A stretch of 64,000 nt of DNA from Thiotrichaceae bacterium. Lineage in GTDB: Bacteria > Pseudomonadota > Gammaproteobacteria > Beggiatoales > Beggiatoaceae. The notes under the pieces are model-generated. The model had not been told where the DNA came from and made no database searches. It saw nothing but the letters and a program-made list of their open reading frames with translations. The stretch is from contig JAOZSV010000002.1 of assembly GCA_029939505.1 (NCBI GenBank), positions 17,741-81,740 of the forward strand. The letters run 5' to 3'. Shown piece after piece: positions 7,611 to 51,743 of this stretch (positions are counted from its first letter, which is position 1; each line of letters starts with the position of its first letter). The translations under genes and the position numbers were made by a program.

Positions 7611-8566
7611 ACTATTCTCGTATTATTGGAACAGGTGGATATCTGCCAGAGAAAATTCTGACTAATGCAGAACTTGAAACTTTGGTAGAAACCAGCGATC
7701 AATGGATTGTTGAGCGGACAGGCATACGCACCCGTCATTTGGCCGCCGATGATCAAGATACCTGTGATTTAGCCGAAAAAGCCGCTCGCCGTGCATTAGA
7801 TATGGCAAAGTGCGATGCTTCTGAAATGGATTTAATCATTTTAGCGACCACAACGCCTGATCGTATTTTTCCCAGCACAGCCTGTTTACTTCAAGCGCGT
7901 TTAGGTAATCATGGGGCAATCGCTTTTGATATACAAGCTGTATGTAGTGGTTTTATTTACGCTTTAACTATTGCAGATAAATTCATCAAAACAGGGGCTG
8001 CACGACGTGCTTTGATTGTTGGTGCTGACATTTTCTCACGCATCATAAATTGGTCAGATCGCAATACTTGTGTTTTATTTGGTGATGGCGCAGGGGCAGT
8101 CGTACTTGAAAAGAGCAACCAACCTGGTATTTTATCCAGCCATTTACATGCTGATGGGGCTTATAAAGACTTATTGACTGTACCTGCGACGATTGCACAA
8201 GGGCGGATTCACGGTGATGCGTTTACAAAAATGCAGGGTAACGAAGTCTTTAAATTTGCTATCAAAGCATTAAGTAAAGTTGTTGACGAAGCATTGGCGG
8301 CTAATCAACTTGATCAAGATGCCCTTGATTGGTTAGTACCCCATCAAGCCAATATTCGCATTATTACAGCAACAGCCAAAAAATTAAAATTGCCGATGGA
8401 AAAAGTGATCGTGACTGTATCAGAACATGGTAATACCTCAGCCGCCTCAGTTCCTTTAGCTTTAGACGTTGCTGTGCGTGATGGACGTATTCAGCGCGGA
8501 GACACATTATTATTGGAAGCCATCGGCGGTGGATTTACTTGGGGTGCTGTACTATTAAAATTATGA
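7607..8566 (+). CDS. fabH: 3-oxoacyl-ACP synthase III (GTG start, overlaps plsX stop)
   Basis: [20 protein letters not shown]...VCSGFIYAL...[14 protein letters not shown]-like C-terminus ([16 protein letters not shown]). Confidence 0.97.
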
Positions 8567-8631
8567 ATTGTGAGGTTCAAGTTTTTTTACGTTTAAGTTT
8601 AATTATGTGAATTAAGTGATTTTGGAATCCA

Positions 8632-8672
8632 TTCGAGATTTGAATTTTTCTTCAAAAAACTCAAACCTCGAA
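8632..8672. repeat. Family-1 hairpin (GAGATTTGAATTTTT/AAAAAACTCAAACCTC), followed by GGAGTCCAACGCTTCAGCTTTGG
   Basis: Direct reading; flanked by TCCA on the left as at 12767, 18456, 19763 and 59256. Confidence 0.88.
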
Positions 8673-8762
8673 TCCTTTAGATTTGGTTTTGGAGTCCAAC
8701 GCTTCAGCTTTGGGCTCCAATTTTAACTCTCAATTCGCATTAATTAAATCACTATAATTGAA

Positions 8763-9695
8763 ATGAAACACGCATTTGTTTTTCCAGGGCAAGGCTCTCA
8801 ATCCGTCGGCATGTTAGCGGATTTAAGCGCGACTTATCCCATTATCAAACACACCTTTGAGGAAGCTTCCGAGATATTAGGCTATGATTTATGGAATTTG
8901 AGCCAAGAAGGGCCAGAGAAAACCTTAAATCAAACCGACAAAACTCAACCCGCACTACTTGCTGGCGGTGTAAGTACATGGCGCGTATGGCAAGAGCAAG
9001 GGGGTAGCGCTCCAGTCTTTATGGCAGGACACAGTTTTGGCGAATACAGTGCTTTAGTCTGTGCAGGCGCATTAGAATTTAAAGATGCTGCCAGCTTGGC
9101 ACAAGATCGAGGTCGTTTTATGCAAGCGGCGGTGCCGGAAGGCGAAGGCGCAATGGCGGCTATCTTAGGTTTAACAGATGAAAAAATGATTGACATTTGT
9201 GCAGAAGTAGCCCAAAATCAAGTTGTTTCAGCCGTCAATTTTAATGCCCCTGGTCAAATTGTCATTGCGGGACATACTGCCGCTGTCAAACGGGCGATAG
9301 AACAGGCAAAAGCGGCGAAAGCGAAACGCGCTATCTTGTTGCAAGTCAGTGTACCTGCCCATAGCCGCTTAATGCAGCCCGCCGCTGAAAAAATGGCAGA
9401 GCGTCTTACTGCTGTTACCATAACCACGCCGACAATTCCCGTGATTCATAATGTTGATGTTTCCGTCAAAACGGAACCTGCTGATATTCGTACTGCCCTG
9501 ACAGCACAACTCTATAACCCCGTGCGCTGGGTAGAAACAATTGAAAAAATCGTCGCCGAAGGCGTGACGATGTTGTTTGAATGTGGCCCTAAAAAAGTGT
9601 TAACCGGCTTAAATAAACGTATTGCTCGCACTGCGACCGCAAAACCAATAATGGATACTAAGACATTAGAACAAGCCTTGGAGGCCCTCGCATGA
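8763..9695 (+). CDS. fabD: Malonyl CoA-acyl carrier protein transacylase
   Basis: AFVFPGQGSQSVGM...MAGHSFGEYSALVCAGAL. Confidence 0.97.
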   Translation: MKHAFVFPGQGSQSVGMLADLSATYPIIKHTFEEASEILGYDLWNLSQEGPEKTLNQTDKTQPALLAGGVSTWRVWQEQGGSAPVFMAGHSFGEYSALVCAGALEFKDAASLAQDRGRFMQAAVPEGEGAMAAILGLTDEKMIDICAEVAQNQVVSAVNFNAPGQIVIAGHTAAVKRAIEQAKAAKAKRAILLQVSVPAHSRLMQPAAEKMAERLTAVTITTPTIPVIHNVDVSVKTEPADIRTALTAQLYNPVRWVETIEKIVAEGVTMLFECGPKKVLTGLNKRIARTATAKPIMDTKTLEQALEALA

Positions 9696-22636: not shown

Positions 22637-22775
22637 TCTTGCAAAACTCGCTTTTTCGAGTTTCGAGCTTAGAAATCGAGGCTAAAGTTTTTTTGAAGAA
22701 AAAACTTTAGCCTCGATTCGATTTTTTTCAAAAATCGGATTTCTTAAACCTCGTGTGTTCAGAGTTTTGCAAGAA
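22637..22775. repeat. Composite GCAAAACTCG..family-D (AGAAATCCGATTTTT) palindrome interrupted by a nested family-1 hairpin (about 22678-22717)
   Basis: Comparison with uninterrupted inverse copy at 37669-37764. Confidence 0.88.
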
Positions 22776-31939: not shown

Positions 31940-32560
31940 TTACTTTATATTCAAAGACTTAACAATATATCCTATACGTTCAATAATACCAGAAACATTA
32001 CTAACATGATAATTTTGGTCATCTAAAGTCAGAATATTGTCTTTTAACAACATAAATTCCCATACTTCTCCATCAGTTATAATACCATACACCTGTTCTT
32101 GCTTGGGAAACATTTTTAAGGTGGCAACCAATTCTGATAAACATTGACCAATCCCTTTACTGAGTTCACGCGGTTTGGCTTCAATTATTGAGATAACTGG
32201 ATAAATAAAATCAAAAATATCCATGCTGATAGCGTAATCACAATTACCATTTAATTGATGCGGTAAATCTGGCATTTGCTCTTTAGGAACACTTAACTCT
32301 TTTTCCAGAAAAATACCTAAATCATAGATAAAACAGGCTTCAGATACAACTGGAGTGACTAATAACCCTTTTCTAGTCGCTTCATTGTCAGCTGTTACCG
32401 ATTTAATACGTAGTACCGAGTTATTTAACCGACTTTGTAACTCGGAATATTTTTGCTCACTGTATTCTAATGTGGCAAATAAATCATCATGTTTGACTAC
32501 AATATTAAAGATTTCTCTAAGTCGATTAATTGGGTATCCATAATATTCACTGAAAGCCAT
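31940..32560 (-). CDS. PD-(D/E)XK nuclease-like restriction-endonuclease-fold protein
   Basis: NGNCDYAISMDIFDFIYPVISIIEAKPRELSKGIGQCLSELVATLKMF...VYGIITDGEVWEFMLL (D...E-x-K arrangement). Confidence 0.55.
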   Translation of the reverse strand: MAFSEYYGYPINRLREIFNIVVKHDDLFATLEYSEQKYSELQSRLNNSVLRIKSVTADNEATRKGLLVTPVVSEACFIYDLGIFLEKELSVPKEQMPDLPHQLNGNCDYAISMDIFDFIYPVISIIEAKPRELSKGIGQCLSELVATLKMFPKQEQVYGIITDGEVWEFMLLKDNILTLDDQNYHVSNVSGIIERIGYIVKSLNIK

Positions 32561-35333: not shown

Positions 35334-36209
35334 ATGGAGATATTTAAAAACGGAAAACAGACCATATTTTGGGGAGATGCAATTGAAGCATTACAAAAAG
35401 AAATTGAGGATAATTCGATTGATTTAATATTCGTCGATCCACCTTACAATATTGGAAAAATTTTCAATGGAAGTCAAGAAAAATGGTCTTCGAGTAATGA
35501 ATACTTAAAATGGTGTTATAAGTGGATAGATTTATGTTTGAACAAATTAAAACCAACAGGAAGCTTTTATGTTATGACAGCAACTCAATTTATGCCATAT
35601 TTTGATATTTATCTGCAAAAGAAAGTTGAAATATTATCCAGAATTGTATGGTCCTACGATAGTTCAGGTGTGCAAGCTAAAAAGCATTACGGTTCTTTAT
35701 ATGAACCGATACTGTTTTGTGTTAAGGATAAACAAAATTATACATTCAATACAGATGATATTCTTGTTGAAGCTAAAACAGGTGCAAAACGAAAATTAAT
35801 AGATTATCGTAAAAATCCACCACAAGTTTATAATTCAAAAAAAGTACCTGGCAATGTTTGGGAGATTCCACGAGTAAGATATAGAATGCCTGAATATGAG
35901 AACCACCCTACTCAAAAACCAATACTGTTACTTGAACGCATAATTAAAGCAAGTTCAAAAGAAAATGATGTTGTTTTAGATCCCTTTTCAGGCACTTTTA
36001 CCACATCTTATGTTGCAAAACAGTTGAACAGAGAGTCTATTGGAATTGAATTACAAGATGAATATGTCAAAATTGGACTAAGACGATTACAAATAACCGA
36101 TGAGTTCAACGGTGAAAAACTGGAAAAAGAAGTCAGAACTTATGAAACAGCAAAACAAAAATCATACTCTTGTTCCCAAACAGAGTTTGGGAACGAGAAA
36201 CAAAAATGA
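35334..36209 (+). CDS. Site-specific DNA methyltransferase (amino-MTase, DPPY type)
   Basis: IDLIFVDPPYNIGKIF (motif IV), VVLDPFSGTFTTSYVAKQLNRESIGIELQDEYV (motif I); C-terminus ends in a GTTCCCAAACAGAGTTTGGGAAC palindrome. Confidence 0.9.
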   Translation: MEIFKNGKQTIFWGDAIEALQKEIEDNSIDLIFVDPPYNIGKIFNGSQEKWSSSNEYLKWCYKWIDLCLNKLKPTGSFYVMTATQFMPYFDIYLQKKVEILSRIVWSYDSSGVQAKKHYGSLYEPILFCVKDKQNYTFNTDDILVEAKTGAKRKLIDYRKNPPQVYNSKKVPGNVWEIPRVRYRMPEYENHPTQKPILLLERIIKASSKENDVVLDPFSGTFTTSYVAKQLNRESIGIELQDEYVKIGLRRLQITDEFNGEKLEKEVRTYETAKQKSYSCSQTEFGNEKQK

Positions 36210-36412: not shown

Positions 36413-36601
36413 TGGAGCTTTGTACAGGACAATTTTTTTATCATTTCTGAGTAGGGTGGGTAGAGCGATAGCGAAACCCACCATTTTTGGTGCCACTTCG
36501 TTCCTACCCACCCTACATTTTACGGATCAATTTTTATAAAATACGGAAAATCAATGAGTTATAGAAAATTTTCCTGTACAGTGTTAATGGAGTTAAATCT
36601 G

Positions 36602-37696
36602 ATGATAGAAGAACAAACTAAAGATATGCTGGAAGGTGAAGAGGATTCAAATGATATTTATCCCAATGCGACGGTTAAAATATCTAAAGAACAATTTAGT
36701 ATTTATGATTTAAAAAGACAATATGATAAACGTCAAAATATCATTATTGCACCGATTTTCCAAAGAAATGAGGTCTGGAAATCTAAGCAAAAAAGTGAAT
36801 TAATTGAATCCGTTTTAATGGGTATTCCTATTCCAGTCATGTATTTTTTTGAGGGCAAGGATGGCAAAAAACAGGTTGTGGATGGTCGTCAAAGATTAAC
36901 GACTTTTTTTAGTTTTATTGACGGTGAATTTAAACTAAACAATCTAAAGATTTTAAAAGAGCAAAATGCTAAACGCTTTAACGATTTAGAACCAGTTTAT
37001 CAGGGCTTGATAGAAGATTATCAGTTGCTTATTTATATCATTCAACCACCGACACCAGAAAAAGTCAAGTTTGATATTTTTGATAGAGTTAATCGTGGTG
37101 GCACTCAATTAAATCATCAAGAAATGCGAAATGCTTTATATCAAGGTAAAGCAACGGAATTATTAAACCGATTAGTCGAATTGGATTCTTTTAAACGGGC
37201 TACCGGTGAAGCGATAAATAGCACAAGAATGAAAGATAAATATGTCGTTTTAAGATTTTTATCTTTTTATATGTTACACGAAAACTGGTTAGGTGAAATC
37301 ACCTATAAAAGTGATATTGATGATTTTCTAGCCAAAACGATGGAATTTATCAATAAATTAAGTGAAGACAAAATTGAAAGTTTAGAACATCTCTTTCAAA
37401 CGGCTATGCAGAATAGCTATGATATTCTTGGTGAAAATGGATTTAGATTTGCTAAAAAAGGTCAATCTACTAAACCAATTGCTATGGCATTATTTGAAAT
37501 AATGGCTTATTTTTTTAGTGATAGAGAGATTGGAAATCTTGATAAAGATTTGCTTAAAAAAGAAGTAGAACTTCTAAAATCAGAATTTGAACAAAGCGGA
37601 ACTTGCTTGAGCGGAATAGATAGTTCAATTAATGTTAAGTACCGATTTGAGAAAATTAAAGAACTAAGAGCCTCTTGTAAAACTCTGAATACATAA
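36602..37696 (+). CDS. DUF262 domain-containing protein (ParB/GmrSD-N-like)
   Basis: IIIAPIFQRNEVWKSKQKSELIESVLMGIPIPVMYFFEGKDGKKQVVDGRQRLTTFFSFIDGEFKL; no DUF1524/HNH region visible. Start 36602 preferred over 36554. Confidence 0.9.
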   Translation: MIEEQTKDMLEGEEDSNDIYPNATVKISKEQFSIYDLKRQYDKRQNIIIAPIFQRNEVWKSKQKSELIESVLMGIPIPVMYFFEGKDGKKQVVDGRQRLTTFFSFIDGEFKLNNLKILKEQNAKRFNDLEPVYQGLIEDYQLLIYIIQPPTPEKVKFDIFDRVNRGGTQLNHQEMRNALYQGKATELLNRLVELDSFKRATGEAINSTRMKDKYVVLRFLSFYMLHENWLGEITYKSDIDDFLAKTMEFINKLSEDKIESLEHLFQTAMQNSYDILGENGFRFAKKGQSTKPIAMALFEIMAYFFSDREIGNLDKDLLKKEVELLKSEFEQSGTCLSGIDSSINVKYRFEKIKELRASCKTLNT

Positions 37697-37764
37697 GGTT
37701 TAAGAAATCCGATTTTTGAAAAAAATCGGATTTCTAAGCTCGAAAAAGCGAGTTTTGCAAGCCT
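37669..37764. repeat. Family-D palindrome composite (inverse, uninterrupted copy of 22637-22775); supplies the 3' end of the DUF262 ORF
   Basis: CTTGTAAAACTCTGAATACATAAGGTTTAAGAAATCCGATTTTTGAAAAAAATCGGATTTCTAAGCTCGAAAAAGCGAGTTTTGCAAG. Confidence 0.9.
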
Positions 37765-37787
37765 CCCCCATCAGAGAAAAAAATACT

Positions 37788-38795
37788 ATGATCAATAACT
37801 TAAAAATTAACCAATTCAAATGTCTTGGTGACGAAAATTTGACTTTTAAGAATTTAACCATTCTAACCGGTTTAAATTCTGCGGGTAAATCTTCTGTTAT
37901 TCAAAGCATATTATTAATGTCTCATTATTTTGGTGAGAAAAAATTCTTATCAGAAAATCTGCTTGACTTTACGAATAACAGAAATAAATACCTCAATGCA
38001 AAAGCATTTTCAATTGAGATAGATGGTATTTGTTTAACGAAAAATATTGATGCAACAAATCCACAAGGAATTTTGCCACATTTCACAATTGAACAAGACC
38101 TATTTCACGTCGATGCAAACAGATTAGGTCCTGAAGAACTCGCGTTATATAGTAGCGAAAATAAAATTGGCCAACATGGGGAATTTATTTTTAGTTACTA
38201 TGAACAAAATAAAAGTCATGTGATTGAAAAATCTTTGATTAAAAGTGCAAATTCAGATACATTACAGGGTAATATTGATTACTGGTTAAGCGATATTTTA
38301 GATTGTGAAGTAGAGCTGAAAACAGAAAGAGTCGCCACGAGTCATGTCAAAGTCAGTTATCAGTTTAATCAACTTCAAGCAATCTCACCTGATAGTTTAG
38401 GGGCAGGAACGAGCTATATTGCTAAAATCTTGATTGTCTGTTTACTCGCGAAAAAAGATCAGGTTTTACTTCTTGAAAATCCTGAAATTCATTTACATCC
38501 CAAAGCGCAAGCCAAACTGGGGGAATTTTTTGCTTTTATTGCAAATAACGGCGTTCAAGTAGTTTTGGAAACCCATTGTGAAAATTTAATTGATAAAATT
38601 AGATATGAGGTATATAAAAATCACATTAATAATGATGATGTGGTCATTTACTATAAAGAGGATTCAAAAACCCCTTTTGAAAAAATAGAAGTTGATGGAA
38701 CTGGACATTTTATTCGGGAAAATAAAGAAGCTCAAGACAATTTTCCCGCCAGTTTTTTCGGAACAAATTTAACAGAACTTTTGGAAATGGGATAA
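37788..38795 (+). CDS. AAA family ATPase (SMC/OLD-like P-loop, DUF3696-like C-terminus); start 37788
   Basis: FKNLTILTGLNSAGKSSVIQSILLM (Walker A), DQVLLLENPEIHLHPKAQAKLGEFF (Walker B-like), VVLETHCENLIDKIR, GHFIRENKEAQDNFPASFFGTNLTELLE. Confidence 0.88.
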   Translation: MINNLKINQFKCLGDENLTFKNLTILTGLNSAGKSSVIQSILLMSHYFGEKKFLSENLLDFTNNRNKYLNAKAFSIEIDGICLTKNIDATNPQGILPHFTIEQDLFHVDANRLGPEELALYSSENKIGQHGEFIFSYYEQNKSHVIEKSLIKSANSDTLQGNIDYWLSDILDCEVELKTERVATSHVKVSYQFNQLQAISPDSLGAGTSYIAKILIVCLLAKKDQVLLLENPEIHLHPKAQAKLGEFFAFIANNGVQVVLETHCENLIDKIRYEVYKNHINNDDVVIYYKEDSKTPFEKIEVDGTGHFIRENKEAQDNFPASFFGTNLTELLEMG

Positions 38796-38801
38796 AAAAT
38801 A

Positions 38802-39497
38802 ATGGAATATACGATTATTTTAAGCGACGAACTGTTAAAAGCGTATTATGACTTTAAAAATGCCAAAGATGTTGATCAAAATATTATCACCAATCTTTTG
38901 AAGTATTATTCTAGGCATTTAACCAATATTGCCCAATTAAAAAGAATTGCAATAGATGTAGATGATTCTTTTAAAAAGAACTTATTACGAAAAGGTTATA
39001 TAAATCAAACCTTAGAAGAGCTTTGCGAAAAAACGATATACAAATTCATTTTAAATACTGAAAAGAATGATTACCCGTATATCAATATTAATGCTGATAA
39101 AATCGAAAGAAATTTCACTGCGACTTATGGTAAAAATGAAAGCCGTGATAAAACGATTAAGCATATAAAAGCCTTGTGTAAAAATGCGAAATATATTTTT
39201 ATCTATGATAAATATATGAACGATAAAGTGATTCAAAAAATATCTCAAATTTTGCCTCAAAAAAAACTGAATCTCATTTATAAAGAAGGGCAATTATCTC
39301 AAACGCAAATAAGTCGCTTAAAAAAAGAAGATCAAAATTGGAAAATTCAACAAGATAGTAAAAATACTTATCATGATTATCACGATAGATATTTGTTGAT
39401 TGATAATCACATCGAAATGATTTTAACCAGTGGATTTGACTATTTATTTGATGAAAACAAAGATTTTACCTATATTGTTAGAAATCGGGTAAATTAA
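38802..39497 (+). CDS. Uncharacterised protein with PLD-like HDR motif; third gene of DUF262-AAA module
   Basis: C-terminal YHDRYLLIDNHIEMILTSGFDYLFDENKDFTYIV resembles single-HxK/HDR phospholipase-D-like motifs; 6 bp downstream of the ATPase. Confidence 0.6.
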   Translation: MEYTIILSDELLKAYYDFKNAKDVDQNIITNLLKYYSRHLTNIAQLKRIAIDVDDSFKKNLLRKGYINQTLEELCEKTIYKFILNTEKNDYPYININADKIERNFTATYGKNESRDKTIKHIKALCKNAKYIFIYDKYMNDKVIQKISQILPQKKLNLIYKEGQLSQTQISRLKKEDQNWKIQQDSKNTYHDYHDRYLLIDNHIEMILTSGFDYLFDENKDFTYIVRNRVN

Positions 39498-39613: not shown

Positions 39614-40891
39614 ATGAAAATTAAATTTTCCAATTTAGGTTCGATTAAAGAAACAGAACTTGAATTACGCCCTTTAACGATAATTATTGGTCCAAATAAC
39701 TCAAATAAGACTTATCTGGCTTATTGTGTTTATGGCATTTTGCAACAATGTTTACTGTCTATAGATCGTCTTGATCAAATCAACAATTTAAATTCGCTTA
39801 TGGGATGGTCTCAACTGGTAAACGAATCCATTCATCAAGAAATTGAACGCCACTCATTTAAACGGTTAATTGGTCAATCAACAAACAATGAACTATTTTT
39901 AAAAAAGCCGAAAGCCAATGTAGAAGCCGCTTTTATTGAAACGCTGACAACCATATTCAATAAGAATATATATCGCTTTAAAAGAAAAATCAGTATTTTT
40001 TTTCAAGATCATGATAAAAAACTGTTCGCCAACAGCAATTTTTCTCTTTTACCAGAAACATTTAACGCGCTATTTGATAATCACATTCCCATTCTTGGGA
40101 TAGAAGGCAATCCCATTGAAGAACGCATTGCACAGGCATTAATTGATCGTATTATTAATATACTATTACCAAAACCATTTCTGCTACCAACCGAGCGTAA
40201 TGCCCTGATACTCAATTATAAAATGCTTAATAAGCAGCGTTCAAACCGGTTAGAACACCGCCTCTCGCAATTTCATGAGAAAATTCAAAAACCGGATGAA
40301 TCTGTTCAAATTCGTTATCCTAAGCCGGTAGAAGATTTCTTGAGTTTTCTGAAAAATAGTGAAGTCAATAAAAACGGAAAGTTGACTCCAACCACCCCAT
40401 TTCAAATACTGGCTGATAAAATTGAACGGGACATACTTGACAAGAACCATATTTTCTATGAAACGACTGTACTTGAAGAGAACGAAATCAAAGTCAAAAT
40501 CAATGACAAACTAACGATTGACTTATATAATGCCTCCTCTGCAACTAAGCAATTAACTTCTTTATTGTTATATTTACGCTATCGCGCTAAGGAAAACGAT
40601 TTGCTGATTATAGATGAACCAGAAATGAATTTGCATCCAAAATATCAAGCCAAACTGCTTGAAATATTTGCTATTTTGGTTAATATTGGCGTTAAAGTGT
40701 TAATCACAACACATAGCCCTTATCTTGTGGATCATCTCAATCATTTAGTCAATGCTAAAACGGATTCTTATCAAGGAATCCAAAAACAAGCGAGTACTTT
40801 GGATTCAAAATATTTAAGGGCCTTTCTGACTTTAGAACAAGTGAATGCTTATGAAATGAAGAATAATCAGTTGCATTTGCTGAAATATTAA
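39614..40891 (+). CDS. AAA family ATPase (AAA_15/AAA_21-like)
   Basis: MKIKFSNLGSIKETELELRPLTIIIGPNNSNKTYLAY; NDLLIIDEPEMNLHPKYQAKLLEIFAILVNIGVKVLITTHSPYLVDHLNHL. Confidence 0.88.
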   Translation: MKIKFSNLGSIKETELELRPLTIIIGPNNSNKTYLAYCVYGILQQCLLSIDRLDQINNLNSLMGWSQLVNESIHQEIERHSFKRLIGQSTNNELFLKKPKANVEAAFIETLTTIFNKNIYRFKRKISIFFQDHDKKLFANSNFSLLPETFNALFDNHIPILGIEGNPIEERIAQALIDRIINILLPKPFLLPTERNALILNYKMLNKQRSNRLEHRLSQFHEKIQKPDESVQIRYPKPVEDFLSFLKNSEVNKNGKLTPTTPFQILADKIERDILDKNHIFYETTVLEENEIKVKINDKLTIDLYNASSATKQLTSLLLYLRYRAKENDLLIIDEPEMNLHPKYQAKLLEIFAILVNIGVKVLITTHSPYLVDHLNHLVNAKTDSYQGIQKQASTLDSKYLRAFLTLEQVNAYEMKNNQLHLLKY

Positions 40892-42646: not shown

Positions 42647-42769
42647 ACACATAATGATGTGGACCGTTCTTTCAATCGCGTCAAGAAATCCGATTTTTTG
42701 AAAAAATCGGATTTCTAAGTTCAAAAGCAAATAGGGCCGGATAGGTTCATTTCTTTCAATGGAATTTTT

Positions 42770-51625: not shown

Positions 51626-51743
51626 TTTTGCAGCTCAGAAATCCGATTTTTTCAAAAAATCGGATTTCTTAAAACAGATTTCCTAATTATTTGATTTTAA
51701 ATGATTTTTATGGGAATTCATTCACATTGCTCAGGTTTCAAAT

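Follow-up and report, generated by a model that had tools for sequence, protein, structure and literature searches.

What kind of system is encoded by three consecutive genes – for a DUF262 protein, an AAA ATPase and a small protein with a phospholipase-D-like (PLD-like) end – in a member of the Beggiatoaceae related to Thiomargarita, a giant sulfur bacterium, and what part does each protein play? The genes lie in a row on the plus strand of the window (the whole 64,000-nucleotide stretch of DNA that was analysed; Table 1). The coordinates, gaps and motifs given for them in an earlier sequence-only reading were all verified, the motifs VVDGRQRLTTFF and HDRYLLIDNHIEMILTSGFDYL being found exactly as quoted. 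Ninety-one bases separate the end of nsnA (37696) from the ATG of nsnB (37788), and nsnC begins directly downstream of nsnB, after a gap of 6 bases (38795 to 38802). An alternative in-frame ATG upstream, at 36554, would extend NsnA by 16 residues; the ATG at 36602 agrees better with relatives.

Table 1. The three genes, the hairpin element that parts two of them, and the flanking genes (positions within the window).
Feature	Position	Strand	Description
nsnA	36602..37696	+	DUF262 (GmrSD_N, ParB/Srx-like NTPase), 364 aa; (V/I)DG(R/K)QR motif; without DUF1524
nsnB	37788..38795	+	RecF/OLD-like ABC-type AAA ATPase, 335 aa; without Toprim domain; DUF3696-like tail
nsnC	38802..39497	+	231 aa; N-terminal part and C-terminal predicted PLD-fold domain, residues about 103-231
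palindromic hairpin insertion	37699..37764	.	AAGAAATCCGATTTTT..AAAAATCGGATTTCT plus GCTCGAAAAAGCGAG; between nsnA and nsnB
adenine methyltransferase	35334-36209		PRK11524 family, 1.1e-140
AAA ATPase	39614-40891		PD-T4-4_A-like 2.1e-55; PDC-M47A 3.8e-48

Profile matches indicate that the trio is almost certainly a complete Menshen system, in the order nsnA-nsnB-nsnC, of the subtype in which NsnC has a PLD-like C-terminal end. Each protein matches a PADLOC model: NsnA matches PDLC03877 (E 2.7e-111, 371 bits, model positions 20-379 of 385), NsnB matches PDLC03878 (E 9.5e-77, over nearly the full model length) and NsnC matches PDLC03880 (E 1e-73, residues 1-228). NsnA, NsnB and NsnC are the proteins of Menshen, a system reportedly described by Millman et al. 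in 2022. The proposal that these genes form a defence system is borne out by the three matches; the accompanying view, that the module is uncharacterised and corresponds to no named system, is ruled out by them. Menshen is known and already named, and the system itself is not new. Taken by itself the NsnA model does not settle the matter, since it gives a higher score (4.7e-116) to a different DUF262 gene of the same genome, one that precedes a truncated nsnB; the NsnB models, for their part, cross-match many ATPases. What carries the diagnosis is the trio in its order, together with NsnC. With the named Menshen (PDLC03877, PDLC03878 and PDLC03880) the window copy shares its three proteins, gene order, lengths and domain content; it differs in its Beggiatoaceae host and in the hairpin insertion that parts nsnA and nsnB.

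The DUF262 protein invites comparison with better known families. NsnA matches a single Pfam family, PF03235 (GmrSD_N, or DUF262; E 1.3e-26), and Pfam found no DUF1524 in NsnA or in neighbouring proteins, in agreement with the early description of a DUF262 protein lacking the DUF1524/HNH half. The likeness to GmrSD, BrxU and SspE lies in a DUF262 domain with a DGQQR-like motif, but those enzymes carry a DUF1524 HNH nuclease half, in place of which the window trio has two partner proteins; a type IV enzyme of this kind was rejected for want of that half. The DUF262 protein of PD-T4-2 is also related to NsnA, but the PD-T4-2_A model scores 136 bits, far below the 371 of the NsnA model, and the partners match NsnB and NsnC; membership of PD-T4-2 was therefore rejected too. 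Among relatives of NsnA, the nucleotide-pocket motif (V/I)DG(R/K)QR is kept, and comparison with the nsnA of other trios gives identities of 43-95%. The structure model of NsnA was not good enough to establish its fold, Foldseek giving no match at E <= 0.001. According to a review, Menshen has a DUF262 protein and no DUF1524, and its resistance is abolished when the DUF262 genes are mutated or deleted (PMC10952713).

Do the three genes belong together? The sequence-only reading had treated them as a unit, and homologous trios do recur, in plasmids, prophages, E. coli and other Beggiatoaceae. NsnA, NsnB and NsnC each served as a separate query on a set of 72,556 plasmids. NsnB was found, at E <= 1e-30, in 7 records, with DUF262 annotated beside it in all 7 and an NsnC match present in all 7; the same plasmids, which include those of Campylobacter (L015/L016) and Klebsiella (L018), are the top 7 NsnA records (43-50% identity, against at most 39% for the remainder). 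Complete trios were found in Thiomargarita (L009: nsnC 95% identical, same neighbour genes, intact) and in Marithrix (L010: 88% identical, other neighbour genes). In viral contigs a narrow alignment gave no match, while a broader one gave four (L029-L032), all prophage-like, with the trio between replication-nickase and portal genes; their flanking genes match phage replication nickase, portal and terminase, and the arrangement looks P2-like. In one of these copies (L029) nsnA is interrupted by a stop. A single E. coli genome out of 5,426 (EC42405, L033) carries the trio, between hsdRMS and yjiA. The family is rare: besides the window's genome, 369 genomes of the class yielded one weak non-Menshen match, 399 genomes of the phylum yielded none, and none of 50,697 phage records matched NsnC. 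The prophage slot of L029 that holds Menshen also contains, beside it (7661-9097), a 478-aa protein, SEFIR/TIR-like by eye, that matches phrog_11745 (function unknown).

The same comparisons bear on the flanking genes, which had been noted as neighbours of the module. Both the methyltransferase and the second AAA ATPase are real, and both border the trio here as well as in the Thiomargarita copy, a closely related locus, as would be expected if they were functional parts of a larger system concerned with self/non-self marking. Neither, however, adjoins the trio in Marithrix, in the Campylobacter and Klebsiella plasmids, in the P2-like prophages or in E. coli, and the ATPase belongs to a family of its own (PD-T4-4_A); a larger system thus seems exceedingly unlikely, and the two genes were rejected as system parts since they are not conserved with the trio. 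No restriction partner was recognised near the methyltransferase, and the gene following the ATPase encodes an aldehyde dehydrogenase, so no partner is recognised for the ATPase. Two further genes were seen in these surroundings: in the Thiomargarita copy a HepT-like (HEPN) gene (L009, 4470-4943) separates the trio from the AAA ATPase and is absent from the window, where the gap is about 116 bases; and on the minus strand of the window (31940-32560) a protein matches, at 5.5e-32, a PD-(D/E)XK model classed by PADLOC as CRISPR-associated.

A peculiarity of the window copy is the hairpin between nsnA and nsnB, which is present in the window and in the Thiomargarita copy and absent from Marithrix. 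In Marithrix nsnA and nsnB overlap, as they do or nearly do in the other trios; the 91-bp gap is accounted for by the hairpin insertion, which is not needed by the system. The palindrome (AAATCCGATTTTT-loop-AAAATCGGATTTCT) is REP/MITE-like, and the 5.58 Mb genome holds about 700 copies of it: 700 matches in the forward and 711 in the reverse direction, against 0 for a reversed control. Copies in the window stand at 22731, 22798, 29117, 29169, 37703-37735, 42684-42716 and 51637-51669, and elsewhere the palindrome is sometimes set in regular arrays, with a period of 192 bp (contig C5) or 56 bp (C45). Palindromic repeats and MITEs are abundant in Thiomargarita (PMC4853749).

Such an insertion might be taken as a sign of decay, the locus no longer working in its host, and damaged copies are seen elsewhere. 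In the window's genome a second locus (C156:7945-9164; L002, L035) combines an NsnA-like gene with a truncated nsnB and with several hairpins of the CGAGG type, and is probably a decayed relative of Menshen; in Thiomargarita nelsonii the trio is interrupted, with a stop in nsnC. Against this, all motifs are present in the window copy and each of its three ORFs is intact, as is the orthologous trio of L009, whose nsnC is 95% identical: that the window locus is a relic we consider quite improbable. The T. nelsonii copy (L011, 2460-5489 and 312-1941) is of interest in itself, for an insert of about 3.0 kb, which carries a group-II-intron-like reverse transcriptase, divides its nsnB, an IscB-like (transposon-like) gene sits at the nsnA/nsnB junction, and the premature stop in nsnC falls directly after HDR. 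Another DUF262 gene of the window's genome (C304) was rejected as a second Menshen on its gene content, the next gene encoding a 214-aa protein whose HEPN-type match is weak; it scores 200 bits with the NsnA model and 181 with PD-T4-2_A.

Which of the three proteins is the effector? Evidence came from five more distant nsnA-nsnB pairs (L046-L050), whose NsnA is 34-39% identical to that of the window and whose hosts are Bacteroidota, Cyanobacteria and Alpha-, Beta- and Gammaproteobacteria. They share the order DUF262, DUF3696-type AAA ATPase, third protein, but the third gene matches other NsnC models (for example PDLC03896, PDLC03899 and PDLC03914), and most of these third proteins have a C-terminal WHGK...IRIH...YIG region and no PLD domain, where the window NsnC has one. 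Since the distant pairs carry quite different third proteins, NsnC is the variable part, as expected of an effector, a role that we hold to be likely. A 2025 paper is devoted to domain polymorphism in Menshen and may already cover this variability.

NsnB is best read as an ATP-driven switch: it has Walker A (GLNSAGKSS), signature (LGAGTS) and Walker B (LLLENPE) motifs and an ETH motif, the key P-loop, signature and Walker B residues are invariant in the seven aligned sequences, and a Toprim domain is absent (no Pfam match in 335 aa). Its Pfam matches, AAA_21 and AAA_15 (about 1e-19), are exclusively to ATPase-type families. The DUF3696-like tail that had been noticed at the outset holds by homology: PF12476 has no match in the window protein at E <= 1, a distant NsnB (L048) matches it at 2.2e-12, and NsnB of C. 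jejuni carries a DUF3696 annotation. A competing arrangement would make an OLD-like NsnB the nuclease and NsnC a regulator or adaptor. In the review cited above (PMC10952713) the protein paired with DUF262 in Menshen is described as a predicted OLD nuclease, and the best PDB sequence match of NsnB is indeed an OLD-family protein (6p74, 7.7e-12); but that match is confined to residues 1-45, at the P-loop end, a protein of 335 aa with ATPase-type families alone has no room for a Toprim domain, and the component that varies is NsnC. We judge this arrangement very unlikely. For Gabija GajA and the OLD nucleases, similarly, the likeness lies in a related ABC-type ATPase domain, but there a Toprim nuclease domain follows the ATPase; the search having found none in NsnB, membership of that group was rejected.

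The chemistry of NsnC is the most delicate point. No Pfam family matched NsnC significantly – Helicase_Sgs1, DUF2779 and Seadorna_Vp10 were rejected, their scores lying under the curated cut-offs and being inconsistent across members – and a further NsnC model of PADLOC, the shorter PDLC03907, matches residues 1-115 (1.1e-14). From a seven-sequence alignment AlphaFold2 predicts, for residues 103-231, a PLD half-fold of the beta-alpha type; confidence there is fair to good, pLDDT lying mostly at 75-89 over residues 111-230, whereas residues 1-102 stay below 50. The best Foldseek matches in the PDB are MITD1 (1.8e-4), NucT (3.3e-4) and phospholipase D (3.5e-4), with Nuc (2.7e-3) and SauUSI, a restriction enzyme (0.012), lower down; almost all of the top matches are PLD-fold proteins, with modest structural scores (TM 0.3-0.5). 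NsnC profiles found no match among PDB sequences, and the assignment thus stems from structure prediction. A PLD fold for the C-terminal half is supported at that level, and the third protein does, on the predicted model, have the PLD-type domain first proposed for it.

As a guess at function that proposal was a good one, although the PLD motif has Arg where catalysts have Lys. In HDRYLLID the residues concerned are His194, Arg196 and Asp201; His194, Asp195, Arg196, Tyr197, Ser210 and Gly211 are invariant in ten NsnC homologues, HDRY thus being kept in 10/10. The catalytic motif HxKx4D was found neither in NsnC nor in its aligned relatives, which have HxRx4(D/E): the HKD lysine is Arg in all of them, and the Asp is Glu in some, both unusual for an active PLD enzyme. 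With that Arg in ten relatives, nuclease activity is plausible rather than certain. The single-HKD nucleases Nuc and NucT and the PLD-like domain of MITD1 resemble residues 103-231 in predicted fold, but differ in having neither the Arg nor the extra N-terminal part, at an identity of about 14%.

These departures lend themselves to the main rival account, in which the system is Menshen and the PLD-like domain, rather than being a nuclease, binds or attacks phospholipids as in MITD1, with the membrane as target. MITD1, whose PLD-like fold binds membranes (PMC6015221), is the top Foldseek match; Pfam MIT_C matches Campylobacter homologues weakly (E 0.011 and 0.039); and HxR replaces HxK, with Asp/Glu variation besides. 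Yet a histidine conserved in 10/10 is not obviously needed by a purely membrane-binding domain, nucleases (NucT, Nuc, SauUSI) are also among the structural matches, and the scores are all modest. A membrane target is, in our estimation, unlikely, and we would say the same, with slightly more reserve, of the broader idea that Menshen has nucleic-acid-attacking and membrane-attacking forms set by the swappable NsnC, with the window's PLD-like half a membrane effector of the MITD1 kind. A nuclease is the favoured reading of the effector chemistry, if by no means a secure one.

Copies of NsnC without partners are also found. On a C. coli plasmid (L017, 4426-5010) an orphan NsnC lacks residues 1-42, has neither nsnA nor nsnB nearby, and is 98.5% identical to NsnC of C. 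jejuni pSKBC25; about 20 more Campylobacter plasmid records hold similar partial matches. The C. coli orphan suggests that the PLD part may not be lethal alone and may need its partners. The G284 PLD-like protein was rejected as Menshen, nsnA and nsnB not lying beside its gene. A related genome (L034, 6864-7787) encodes, on its own and with no link to Menshen, a 307-aa protein that has a PLD-like stretch of the HDR type.

Taking PLD-type Menshen with a nuclease effector as the preferred reading, a mechanism can be sketched. The NTP-binding fold of NsnA would sense phage DNA or a phage protein as its cue; NsnB would dimerise on ATP and serve as a switch or clamp linking sensor to effector; NsnC would dock via its N-terminal part, its PLD domain acting once released or activated. 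That domain would most likely be a nuclease of the Nuc/NucT kind, which would work as a dimer and abort the infection by cutting DNA or RNA. These putative roles of sensor, switch and effector are reasonable, although whether NsnA rather than NsnB is the sensor is evenly poised. Taken whole, an abortive PLD-type Menshen with NsnA sensing, NsnB switching and NsnC most likely a nuclease is probable.

The single conserved His and the unusual Arg in an otherwise PLD-like motif provide a concrete test of effector chemistry. The range observed for PLD-type Menshen now includes giant sulfur bacteria of the Thiomargarita type, P2-like prophages, and plasmids of Campylobacter and Klebsiella. The swappable third gene, moreover, makes Menshen a useful comparison set, in which one sensor/ATPase pair drives different effectors.
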